Shown: in pieces, positions 27,666 to 31,606 of the stretch
Position numbering within the stretch: position 1 is the stretch's first letter
Layout of the letters: the number at the start of each line of letters is the position of its first letter
NCBI GenBank assembly: GCA_945903645.1
Contig: CAMDOM010000034.1
Location: 1 to 39,309, forward strand
Length of the DNA: 39,309 nucleotides
Direction: 5' to 3'
Source of the DNA: Chryseobacterium gleum
Lineage (GTDB): Bacteria > Bacteroidota > Bacteroidia > UBA10329
Made by a program: the position numbers and the translations under genes
The notes under the pieces: generated by a model
Told to the model about the DNA's origin: nothing
The model's input: the letters and a program-made list of their open reading frames with translations, nothing else
Databases searched by the model: none

Positions 27666-28547
27666 ATGATTCGTTCAGCTATTCTATTACTCGCTGCAAT
27701 GGCATTATCTTCTTGCAACAAGCAAATGATTCAATTGCTGCATTTAAAACCAATCGGAAAGACGATTATTGAGGAAAAAGATGGGTTTGTATTTGAAAAT
27801 GATACAGTAAGGATTTCTTATTTCTTTTGGGCACATCATGGGAAATTCGAGTTCACCATTGAGAACAAAATGAAAACACCCATTTATATTGATTGGAAAA
27901 AATCAAATCTCGTCTACAATGCAAATCCCAATGTTTATTGGACTGATGTTACGGTCGTTAGTTCGGCATCCGTTTCCGTTGGCGTTGGTTTTAGAGGTTC
28001 TTACGGAATTTCAACAGGTGCAGCCGTCACAGCAGGAGAGTCGGTAATTCGCCCAAAGGAGCGAATCACATTTCTTCCTCCATCATCCAAAATCACCCGA
28101 AATGAATACTCCATTAATAATGCTGCATATTATTTTCTAAATCCTAATAACACAACCATTGAAAATACCTTGAATGATTCTAAACCTTCCAAAGCAACAG
28201 CTATTTATAAAGAATCCTTTAATGAAGCCTCATCGTTAGCACACCTTACAAACTTTCTTACTTTTTCTACAAAAGAAAACTTTGAAAACGAATGGTTTAT
28301 TGAAAACAAGTTCTTTATGAATGAAGTGAATGAAATGGAAATAACACATTTCAGAGGTATCTGCAAAGGTGTCGATGAAAATGAAAATTCAATCTGTCCA
28401 AGAGTATTAAAGTCAAACAAGAAGTATTATTTAATGGTACCTAAATTGTATGACTTTGAAAATCGAAAAAAAAGGAATATGACAAAGTATGAAGAGCCGG
28501 AAATCCACGTTCAGTGGTGGCTTTATACCATTAATATGACTCAGTAA
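27666..28547 (+). CDS. Lipoprotein of unknown function
   Basis: A 293-residue lipoprotein with signal peptide and lipobox LSSC (MIRSAILLLAAMALSSC). The body is beta-rich. The segment FEFTIENKMKTPIYIDWKKSNLVYN (about 60-84) suggests an immunoglobulin-like strand pair, and SSASVSVGVGFRGSYGIS is a glycine/serine-rich loop. The C-terminus has WWLYTINMTQ. No domain is recognised. The gene is distinctly AT-rich compared with sucD or pyc and sits in a region of gene debris, compatible with acquisition. Confidence 0.72.
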   Translation: MIRSAILLLAAMALSSCNKQMIQLLHLKPIGKTIIEEKDGFVFENDTVRISYFFWAHHGKFEFTIENKMKTPIYIDWKKSNLVYNANPNVYWTDVTVVSSASVSVGVGFRGSYGISTGAAVTAGESVIRPKERITFLPPSSKITRNEYSINNAAYYFLNPNNTTIENTLNDSKPSKATAIYKESFNEASSLAHLTNFLTFSTKENFENEWFIENKFFMNEVNEMEITHFRGICKGVDENENSICPRVLKSNKKYYLMVPKLYDFENRKKRNMTKYEEPEIHVQWWLYTINMTQ

Positions 28548-28654
28548 CTCGGAATCCTTATAAGCCTAATATAGAATCTATTACACTCCAAATTTGAGAT
28601 GCTAATCAAATTATTAGATTAGTTTGCAAATTTCCAACTAAAAATTTCGAGTCA

Positions 28655-28740
28655 TTTCTAATACAAAACTTGCTTAAGATAGTGCCCAGCAAGTCGTCTG
28701 TAGTAATCTGGCCAGTTATCTCACTTAGAAACATGACGAG
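28655..28740 (-). pseudogene. Displaced 3'-end fragment of mnmE
   Basis: The minus strand encodes FLSEITGQITTDDLLGTILS and then KFCI, which aligns with the last residues of the intact mnmE 1.4 kb to the right (FLGEITGHITTDDLLGNIFS, KFCIGK). By eye, DNA identity is about 75% over some 75 bp, with many synonymous changes. It is in the same orientation as mnmE, and similarity stops where mnmE stops. Its position on the far side of the HTH/Fic pair is what an insertion at the mnmE 3' end leaves when the incoming element restores the gene end. The preceding 28548-28654 shows nothing else. Confidence 0.65.
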
Positions 28741-28810
28741 CGCAAATTTAGCGGAAAGTAATACGCTTCCAATTTGGTCTTTTAATGACTGAAATAGATG
28801 GGCATATTAA

Positions 28811-29407
28811 TTATGACCTAGCAAAAGCCAAAAGCAAAATGTAATCACCTTTATCCGCAGTTCGAACCGCTTTGAGGTAAGCTGCGCGTGCATCGCTCTC
28901 GCTAATAAGGTTGGCAGCTCCCCAACTAAAAACAGATCGCTTGTAGAGTTTTTGTATAATAATATCGGCCATTAATCTGCTGTGCCTTCCGTTTCCATTG
29001 GCAAAGCAATGAATACTTACAATACGGTGCTTAAACCTTACGGCAATTTCATCTGGTGGGTAGGTATTGTTTTCATGCCAAAACTTAGCATCATTCAACA
29101 GGCATCTTAAATCTGTGGGTATTTGCCATTTGTCCACCCCTAGGTTCTTGTTGTTTTTCCTAAACTCACCTGCCCAAGCCCATACATCGCTATACATCCG
29201 CTTATGCACTTTGCGGATAAAGTCTTCGCTAAATACCACTTCTGGTTTAAAAGAACGCCCCAATGTCCATTGCACCGCTTGTTCAATATTCTGCTGTTCA
29301 AATTCGTCTAACTCTCCACGGGTGGCAATGGTAGGAATGAGCAAGCCATCTTTTTCCTCTTCATCTAAAGGCGTTTGCCCATCTGCATAATCTAAATCTA
29401 ATCCCAT
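28811..29407 (-). CDS. Fic-domain protein, mobile mystery protein B
   Basis: A 198-residue Fic-fold protein of the mobile mystery protein B family (TIGR02613). Fic enzymes usually transfer AMP to hydroxyl side chains. The active-site motif is HCFANGNGRHSR (His133 to Arg144), matching HxFxxGNGRxxR with Cys in place of the usual Pro, so catalysis is probably retained. The N-terminal ATRGELDEFEQQNIEQA helix is typical of the family. The start overlaps the stop of the HTH partner by 10 bp, indicating coupling. This family is nearly always found next to mobile mystery protein A and on mobile DNA. The target is unknown. Confidence 0.88.
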   Translation of the reverse strand: MGLDLDYADGQTPLDEEEKDGLLIPTIATRGELDEFEQQNIEQAVQWTLGRSFKPEVVFSEDFIRKVHKRMYSDVWAWAGEFRKNNKNLGVDKWQIPTDLRCLLNDAKFWHENNTYPPDEIAVRFKHRIVSIHCFANGNGRHSRLMADIIIQKLYKRSVFSWGAANLISESDARAAYLKAVRTADKGDYILLLAFARS

Positions 29408-29856
29408 AAAATTTTAGGCATTTCGTTTTTTAGAGATTCTGTCCTTTCTTCAATGGCTTTTTGAATGCGCTTTTTGGAATTACCCTGATCTTCTAACTTC
29501 ATGGTATTGGATGTGCGCAACACAATCTGGGTAGCCAACTCTTGCGCTTTTCTCTCAATCAATGCTTCGAGCGAGCCATCTTTTGGAACAAACCCATATA
29601 CCAGTTCCATATCCAAACCATTGGCAGCATCCCTAAGGGTTTTGATGGTGATTAATCCGTCTTTTTCCCTACGCTCAATATCAGTAATGCTTTGTTTAGT
29701 GATGGATAGTTTATTACCCAATTGCTGCAGGGACATTCCTAAAGCAGCGCGCACCGCTTTTATCCAACCAGTAGGTGGCGGAGCAATTTTTCGAATAGAT
29801 GCAACTACCAGCATTTTACTACTAAGCTGCTGTATCTGTAATGATTTCTTTCCCAT
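29398..29856 (-). CDS. HTH protein, mobile mystery protein A
   Basis: A 152-residue XRE-type DNA-binding protein of the mobile mystery protein A family (TIGR02612). GWIKAVRAALGMSLQQLGNKLSITKQSITDIERRE (residues about 32-66) forms the HTH, with ITKQSITDIER as recognition helix. MELVYGFVPKDGSLEALIER follows, and a charged helical tail ends the protein. It probably acts as repressor and antitoxin for the Fic partner, because three phased palindromes lie directly upstream. The N-terminal 30 residues are an unassigned extension. It is the first gene of a two-gene operon. Confidence 0.88.
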   Translation of the reverse strand: MGKKSLQIQQLSSKMLVVASIRKIAPPPTGWIKAVRAALGMSLQQLGNKLSITKQSITDIERREKDGLITIKTLRDAANGLDMELVYGFVPKDGSLEALIERKAQELATQIVLRTSNTMKLEDQGNSKKRIQKAIEERTESLKNEMPKILWD

Positions 29857-29887
29857 AATCGCAGATGTATAAGCGAAAAAACAACTG

Positions 29888-29895
29888 CAAATGTA
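29888..29895 (-). promoter_or_regulatory. -7 promoter box of the HTH/Fic operon
   Basis: TACATTTG on the minus strand fits TAnnTTTG and lies 31 nt upstream of the HTH gene start. It overlaps the first palindromic repeat by 3 bp, so a protein bound there should block transcription. Confidence 0.5.
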
Positions 29896-29976
29896 AGCTT
29901 ATAAACTGACAATAAAAATAAAAAAGTAAGCCTATAGACTGACGAAATTATTATAAAAGTAAGCTCATAGACTAAC
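29893..29976. promoter_or_regulatory. Three phased 18-bp palindromic operator repeats
   Basis: Repeats start at 29893 (GTAAGCTTATAAACTGAC), 29926 (GTAAGCCTATAGACTGAC) and 29959 (GTAAGCTCATAGACTAAC), exactly 33 bp apart. The first two are imperfect palindromes (14 of 18 positions symmetric) around TTATAA or CTATAG. They differ from each other only at two symmetric positions, so symmetry is preserved. The 33-bp period is about three helical turns, placing all three on the same DNA face. This strongly suggests cooperative binding by the dimeric HTH protein encoded directly downstream. Confidence 0.7.
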
Positions 29977-30070
29977 GAAATACTACATACATCAAAATAG
30001 TCCAGTAGTCGAAATAGGGAAATCTACTGAAATTCAACATTACCGAGCGTTACTGCTTATGAAAGTAAGA

Positions 30071-31456
30071 CTACTTCCCGATACAAAACTTACTGAAGAT
30101 ATTCCCCAGTAAATCGTCTGTGGTAATATGACCTGTTATTTCACCTAAGAAGAAAAGGGCTCTGCGAATGTCTATGGCAAGCAGGTCGCCCGGGATAAGG
30201 TTGTCCAAGCCAATGAGTACTTCTTCCAAGGCTTGTTTCGCTCCCGAAAGTGCTTCAATGTGGCGAATGTTGGTCACTATGGTTTGGTCTTCTTGCAATG
30301 CGGCAAGGTTCACTTTATCGGTAATTGCAAGAAGCAAAGTTTCCAATCCACGCTTCTCTTTGGCAGAAATAGCCACGGCATTCACTTCTGGAAATTTGAG
30401 CTGAATATCGCTAGTGGTGCGGTCGGTTTTATTGGCCACCGCTATCAGCCGCTTGTCGAGGTCGGGCATCCTTAGGCGCAGGGCATCGAGTTCGCTGGTC
30501 AGCTGACTTGCGGTGTAGGTAGAGGCATCAAAAAGAAACAACACAATTTCTGCTTGCACCGATTTCTGATAGGTACGCTCAATGCCTAGGCCCTCAATAA
30601 GGTCGGTAGTGTGGCGAATTCCAGCAGTATCTACGAAGCGAAACTTAACGCCTTGCACCACCAGTTCGTCTTCAATGGTATCGCGTGTTGTGCCAGCTAT
30701 ATCCGAAACAATGGCACGTTCCTCGTTCAAAAACGCATTCAATAAGGTCGATTTTCCAGCGTTGGGCTCGCCAATTATGGCTACTTGCACGCCTTCTTTT
30801 ATAACATTTCCCAATTCAAACGACCCAATCAACTTGGCAATGGCCGTCACCATGCGGTTTATGAGCGCTTTCATTTGCGAGCGGTCGGCAAACTCCACAT
30901 CTTCTTCTGCAAAATCGAGTTCCAACTCTATGAGCGAAGCAAAATGAATCAGCTCATCGCGAAGCAATTGCAGGTCGCGACTAAAACCACCACGCATTTG
31001 ATGCATGGCTACTTTGTGAGCCGCAGCCGAGGTAGACGCCACCAAATCGGCAATGGCCTCGGCCTGCGAAAGATCCATTTTGCGGTTCAAAAACGCGCGC
31101 ATGGCATATTCACCGGGCTTGGCCATGCGGCAACCGTTGGCGTTAAGCAAATTGAGAATGCGCTTTTGGATATAGACCGAACCATGGCAGCTAATCTCCA
31201 CCGAATCTTCGCCAGTAAACGACTTTGGATTGCGAAAAACGCTAATCAGAACTTCATCCACGGTTTCGGTGTCCTCCATAATGTGCCCAAAAAGGATGGA
31301 ATGGCCTATAGCTTCGATCAGCAGTTTCTTCCCTTTAGACACAAAAATGCGCTGCACATTGGCAAACGTATCCTTGCCCGATACGCGAATAACTGCAATA
31401 GCACCTGACCCAGAAGGTGTGGCTAAGGCCATTATGGTGTCGTCAAGTGGGTTCAA
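30071..31456 (-). CDS. mnmE: tRNA modification GTPase MnmE
   Basis: A protein of about 461 residues that, with MnmG, makes the cmnm5U34 wobble modification. It has the N-terminal formyl-THF domain (DDTIMALATPSGSGAIAVIRVSG), the G domain with P-loop GEPNAGKST, DTAGIRHT and NKTD, and the C-terminal motif FCIGK. The frame is open to 31582, but that would cross the sucD promoter. I chose TTG at 31456 because it gives the family's normal N-terminus and length, and a -7 box lies about 70 nt upstream. ATG 31432 would remove conserved residues. The 3' end may have been supplied by the neighbouring insertion. Confidence 0.95.
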   Translation of the reverse strand: MNPLDDTIMALATPSGSGAIAVIRVSGKDTFANVQRIFVSKGKKLLIEAIGHSILFGHIMEDTETVDEVLISVFRNPKSFTGEDSVEISCHGSVYIQKRILNLLNANGCRMAKPGEYAMRAFLNRKMDLSQAEAIADLVASTSAAAHKVAMHQMRGGFSRDLQLLRDELIHFASLIELELDFAEEDVEFADRSQMKALINRMVTAIAKLIGSFELGNVIKEGVQVAIIGEPNAGKSTLLNAFLNEERAIVSDIAGTTRDTIEDELVVQGVKFRFVDTAGIRHTTDLIEGLGIERTYQKSVQAEIVLFLFDASTYTASQLTSELDALRLRMPDLDKRLIAVANKTDRTTSDIQLKFPEVNAVAISAKEKRGLETLLLAITDKVNLAALQEDQTIVTNIRHIEALSGAKQALEEVLIGLDNLIPGDLLAIDIRRALFFLGEITGHITTDDLLGNIFSKFCIGK

Positions 31457-31525
31457 TTTGCTAGGGTTGTGAGGATGAAAACATGAGGTGATACGAAACG
31501 GCTTTAGGCCAAAAAAAACTTCGCG

Positions 31526-31533
31526 CAAAAGTA
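31526..31533 (-). promoter_or_regulatory. -7 promoter box of mnmE
   Basis: TACTTTTG on the minus strand fits TAnnTTTG. It is 69 nt upstream of the chosen TTG start and downstream of the alternative start at 31582, which argues against the longer reading frame. Confidence 0.45.
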
Positions 31534-31543
31534 CGTTTATCCC

Positions 31544-31575
31544 TTGGGCATCCACCTCGAAAAGACTACTTTCGC
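31544..31575 (+). promoter_or_regulatory. sucD promoter (-33 TTG and -7 box)
   Basis: TTG at 31544-31546 and TACTTTCG at 31568-31575 are separated by 21 nt, in the range for Bacteroidota promoters (one mismatch in TAnnTTTG). The ATG of sucD follows after 31 nt. It lies back to back with the mnmE -7 box. Confidence 0.55.
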
Positions 31576-31606
31576 AGCCCAATTTATAGGAACTAATTAA
31601 AGCAAC

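Follow-up and report, generated by a model that had tools for sequence, protein, structure and literature searches.

A mobile mystery A/B gene pair between an intact and a degraded mnmE 3′ end in Chryseobacterium gleum, at an insertion hotspot of Bacteroidia

The window, that is, the whole 39,309-nt stretch of Chryseobacterium gleum DNA that was analysed, contains an intact mnmE gene on the minus strand (30071–31582), with the Pfam domains TrmE_N, MMR_HSR1 and MnmE_helical and 70–75% identity to relatives in the genus; its end at 30071 is where the initial annotation had placed it. The annotated start codon is a TTG, and homologues start about 126 bases inside this frame, near codon 43. Read along the minus strand, mnmE is followed by a 214-bp spacer, an HTH gene, an overlapping Fic gene, a second and degraded mnmE 3′ end (the “stump”) and finally gene X, which encodes a predicted lipoprotein and is convergent, on the plus strand (27666–28547). 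The last codons of mnmE form an 18-bp sequence, TTTTGTATCGGGAAGTAG (30071–30088, minus strand), that is the attachment core of integrative elements in relatives. Terminators were looked for behind both copies of mnmE in the window, with no convincing candidate.

The two genes between the mnmE ends encode mobile mystery protein A (TIGR02612, Pfam HTH_3; 29398–29856) and mobile mystery protein B (TIGR02613, Pfam Fic; 28811–29407), both on the minus strand. The genes are adjacent, in the usual order, and both exceed the NCBIfam cut-offs (mob_myst_A, 145.9 bits against 122.6; mob_myst_B, 245.9 bits against 124.4), which agrees with the earlier placement of this pair between the intact gene and the fragment. 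Compared with other Fic-type pairs of these families, the proteins themselves are unremarkable. Protein B has the Fic loop (HxFx(D/E)GNGRxxR) in the form HCFANGNGRHSR, in which the catalytic His and GNGRxxR are present and the usual P and acidic residue are replaced. The promoter of the gene for A contains three operator-like repeats with a 33-bp period and the motif GTAAGCYYATARACT (29875–29973, no strand assigned). Of eight further mystery A cassettes, including those of other families, seven have a period of 32–33 bp, which is clearest in genomes G037, G133, G066 and G054. Operators, A and B form a conserved unit (28805–29954, minus strand) shared with G037 at 76.7% identity over 1156 columns, and the similarity stops at both ends. 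The literature searched held no description of the three-repeat array and nothing on point for the A/B proteins.

These features suggest that the cargo is probably a self-regulated addiction or anti-phage Fic module, a function deduced from sequence. Protein A would repress the operon via the operator-like repeats and would restrain B, while unchecked B would be expected, from general knowledge of Fic proteins, to attach AMP to a host target. The effect of the module would be to stabilise the island that carries it or to act against phages.

Between the two mnmE ends there are only the genes for A and B, with no genes for recombination or transfer. The initial annotation had reported that no integrase remains in the window, and a profile of mnmE-associated integrases likewise found no match there at E≤1.

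A degraded second mnmE 3′ end had been proposed at 28655–28740, in the same orientation as the intact gene, and this proposal held up. A blastn search of the whole genome with a 121-bp query aligned stump positions 28661–28727 to mnmE positions 30081–30147, with 82% identity over 67 bp (E 1.3e-12). With tblastn, 24 residues of the stump match mnmE at 83%, aligning LSEITGQITTDDLLGTILSKFCI against LGEITGHITTDDLLGNIFSKFCI, and an ungapped comparison gives an 86-nt direct repeat with 76% identity and a spacing of 1420 bp. The location is therefore as first given; the extent is slightly longer, since in-frame similarity continues to about codon −30 from the end, corresponding to approximately 28655–28748 on the minus strand. 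The attachment core is exact at the proximal end and degenerate at the distal end (28651–28668), with six mismatches, and the repeat as a whole measures 70–95 bp. The stretch is short and lies outside any open gene, as might be expected of a chance similarity or a piece of an unrelated gene. We rejected this explanation, the probability of which is negligible: mnmE is the best other match in the genome, at E ~1e-12, with no unrelated gene aligning better, and the stump also resembles the mnmE ends of many relatives.

If DNA was inserted at the 3′ end of mnmE, one of the two tails would be native and the other imported. Alignment of the fragment with mnmE from close relatives had been put forward as a way to tell them apart. 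When both tails were aligned with six relatives from the genus, they did not separate, because these genes are too divergent and third-position identity is too low to be decisive on the native end. Codon composition leans one way. GC3 is 0.53 in the body of mnmE, 0.35 in its last 25 codons (within the lowest 2.2% of windows of the gene) and 0.48 in the stump. In the six same-genus mnmE genes, by comparison, the tail roughly matches the body in GC content or exceeds it. The intact tail is thus unlike the gene body and the stump is like it, which fits an imported tail (30071–30160, minus strand) and a native stump; as a weak signal from 23 codons, GC3 suggests this assignment. At all six same-genus loci, a second mnmE end was absent from the 3–16 kb of flank examined.

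In Bacteroidia, the 3′ end of mnmE is a genuine hotspot for insertion. In another genome of the genus (G003), mnmE is directly followed by genes for an excisionase-like HTH protein and a tyrosine recombinase with Arm-DNA-bind_5, Phage_int_SAM_5 and Phage_integrase domains. Used as a query, this recombinase has relatives in 45 of 395 genomes of the class; of the 30 best loci, 26 have the 3′ end of an mnmE gene immediately upstream and in the same orientation. The other four loci (L096, L097, L092 and L110) adjoin what we take to be the 3′ ends of secA (two loci), dxs and dnaK. Within groups of these elements, the sequence just past the mnmE stop codon is similar. Elements of 13.5 kb (G058), 24.5 kb (G196) and 40 kb (G012) are closed by direct repeats of the final 16–22 bp of mnmE, and exact or near copies of the 18-bp core close elements in these three and nine further genomes. 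The expectation that relatives would carry a tyrosine recombinase or other cargo at this site has therefore been borne out.

Smaller islands were sought by surveying up to 17 kb behind mnmE in 80 additional genomes, selected for the length of contig available there; 71 of them offered at least 3 kb. A same-strand downstream copy of the last 18 bp of the genome’s own mnmE, with at most two mismatches, was present in nine of the 71, compared with none on the opposite strand and none for shuffled cores (20 rounds). One or two of the nine may be chance occurrences, for example that in G129, which falls within an open frame, or that in G052, which has two mismatches. No integrase of the mnmE-associated group lies between mnmE and the repeat in any of the nine. 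Mystery A, together with other toxin–antitoxin islands, recurs at this site. The island in G133 contains Septu PtuA and PtuB, an intact mystery A with 68% identity to that of the window and a 60-residue remnant of mystery B; the occurrence of the A/B pair at an mnmE 3′ end thus extends to another family. Given the rate of mystery A/B in relatives, nine loci in 59 genomes, ~0.0025 such loci would be expected in the nine islands. Elsewhere, the cargo consists of a type I restriction–modification system with TmtA (G047), a DrmD-like helicase with a methylase (G072), a Fib_succ_major lipoprotein (G062), an HTH gene with a weakly ParE-like gene (G135), or an HTH_3 gene with separate genes for the N- and C-domains of HipA (G086). 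In the last case, the HTH and split HipA genes, a HipBST-like arrangement (L264, 868–2373), fill nearly the whole of a 2.2-kb island.

The closest parallel in form is G135, where mnmE is followed by 1.4 kb of antitoxin- and toxin-like genes and then by a displaced mnmE end of 48 bp at 94% identity, with a hairpin–T-run terminator and a convergent groEL beyond it.

Taken together, these data moderately favour the interpretation that the HTH/Fic pair constitutes a small island without an integrase, either a relic resembling a cis-mobilisable element (CIME) or a passively moved unit, at the mnmE 3′ hotspot. Incoming DNA would have brought its own mnmE tail and replaced the resident tail, keeping the gene intact, and the resident tail would have shifted 1.4 kb downstream, beside convergent X, and then decayed. 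That a site-specific recombinase made the insertion, and that the stump is the native end, is what we infer from the duplicated end and its surroundings. The initial annotation had read the locus as integration at a gene’s 3′ end with the gene restored. This is supported by the hotspot, the duplicated end, the other cargo found at the site and GC3; what does not fit is the length of the stump and its degenerate core. An integrase acting in the final 18 bp should displace no more than these bases; a stump with ~70–95 bp of coding sequence and a degenerate core departs from textbook integration. Further observations that count against the island reading are a third mnmE end accompanied by a relative of X, the small number of codons (23) behind the GC3 values, and the presence of the A/B unit in several genomes at loci unrelated to mnmE, where no integrase was seen in the neighbouring frames. 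From the last of these it follows that the pair is able to spread by other routes.

The length of the stump bears on how the duplication arose. Integrase-bearing elements are bounded by mnmE repeats of 16–22 bp. In contrast, displaced ends vary widely, measuring 48–58 bp in G135, at least 114 bp in G083, where the contig ends, and 240 bp in G196, where a terminator is duplicated as well. Two explanations offer themselves: a crossover further upstream in some elements, or homologous recombination of imported mnmE ends. The latter could dispense with a site-specific recombinase altogether: a donor fragment or circle with an mnmE 3′ end and the HTH/Fic genes would have recombined by homology within mnmE, through a single crossover or through one-sided homology and end joining, to give a full-length gene, the cargo and a 5′-truncated copy. 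The wide variation among displaced ends and the degenerate core of the stump are consistent with such an event. However, the site is exactly where the recombinases of relatives act, and some small islands have proper 18-bp repeats while lacking an integrase. We regard homologous recombination as a serious but less probable route.

The 240-bp mnmE 3′ fragment of G196, with its terminator-like copy, lies in the region 24.5–30.8 kb behind mnmE (L154/L155). It was considered as a simple attR and rejected, being 6 kb past an exact 16-bp repeat and having a second terminator-like sequence. These features indicate a separate event, suggesting an older duplication or a crossover-type insertion.

A third mnmE 3′ end is present in the genome of the window, on contig C13 (2545–2604). 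It reads ITTDNLLGNIFSKFCIGK, ends in a perfect core and carries a strong hairpin (z −3.4). A PAS S-box gene is broken by this end, with the junction at a stretch, ATTACCAC, common to both sequences. The truncated PAS S-box (FixL-like) gene is fused to the last 50–60 bp of mnmE (L005, 2343–2604); the fusion point is an 8-bp stretch found in both, and the remainder of the PAS gene is absent behind it. The PAS gene and kynU were also considered as conserved neighbours on C13 and were rejected, a PAS relative being beside kynU in none of five relatives. A frameshifted copy of X, 77% identical to X of the window over 920 bp, lies 60 bp from the C13 mnmE end. Each of the two X copies in the genome is thus separated by 60–115 bp from an mnmE 3′ end, and the relative orientation is the same in both places. 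Since an mnmE end adjoins X elsewhere in the genome too, part of the history of the stump involves X and not the HTH/Fic pair.

This arrangement raises the possibility that the stump belongs to X, with a mobile or duplicated unit consisting of an mnmE 3′ end and X having come to lie both behind mnmE and on C13, and the HTH/Fic pair having been inserted separately. The shared spacing and orientation of the two X copies would be accounted for. We nevertheless consider this improbable: relatives of X in other genomes, including one with 60% identity in the same genus, are located away from mnmE, the GC3 of the stump resembles that of the mnmE body, and a native mnmE–X neighbourhood with one copying event accounts for these facts too. 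In the simplest reading, the native mnmE end had X as its convergent neighbour, and X was subsequently duplicated along with a piece of mnmE. X as a gene of the hotspot itself was rejected on the positions of its relatives.

Islands at mnmE (trmE) are known in Gammaproteobacteria (PMC5704250, PMC12016545, PMC3091717), and Salmonella genomic island 1 (SGI1), which had been cited as precedent for this integration site, does sit within the last 18 bp of trmE (PMC5006074). The island described here resembles these elements in its insertion at the mnmE 3′ end, in the last-18-bp core of its integrase-bearing relatives and in its defence or toxin–antitoxin cargo. It differs in belonging to Bacteroidota, in lacking integrase, xis and mobilisation genes, and in having a long stump in place of the 18-bp repeat; the SGI1 backbone (int, xis, mpsAB, traNHG) is absent from the window, where the 1.4 kb holds just two genes. 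CIMEs are decayed integrative elements of 1.2–13 kb that keep their att sites (PMC7563491). The ~1.3-kb island is like them in size, in cargo without recombination genes and in occupying a site that full recombinase elements use, both in the genus and at the 26 class loci; unlike them, it has a degenerate distal att site that includes a long segment of the target gene. In the variable rpiA–trmE locus of Streptococcus suis, defence genes are exchanged beside trmE (PMC5398294), a parallel in cargo and position from a different phylum. The literature searched, with incomplete coverage, contained no account of mnmE integration in Bacteroidetes.

The island of the window is accordingly of a kind already known from mnmE islands and CIMEs, with two untypical traits, the long stump and the third copy linked to X. 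We regard the Bacteroidia-wide use of mnmE, by a recombinase group of its own and by small toxin–antitoxin and defence islands, as the more interesting result. It suggests that in Bacteroidia mnmE commonly serves as an insertion site for genes of defence and toxin–antitoxin systems. It also brings the uncharacterised mystery A/B pair, with its conserved operator array, among the cargo of a hotspot, and a second downstream copy of the last 18 bp of mnmE provides a simple means of finding islands. More speculatively, the Bacteroidota mnmE 3′ end may be a standing dock, into which small integrase-less toxin–antitoxin or anti-phage islands, mystery A/B included, move in trans via mnmE-specific recombinases, with long displaced ends (48–240 bp) reflecting a second crossover mode that swaps more of the mnmE tail. 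We offer this proposal as conjecture and consider it unlikely in this full form.

Finally, a short contig of another assembly (L057; G006, contig C1) terminates within a second and divergent copy of the mnmE 3′ end, behind which come excisionase and integrase genes; this may represent a foreign element or a contaminant contig.
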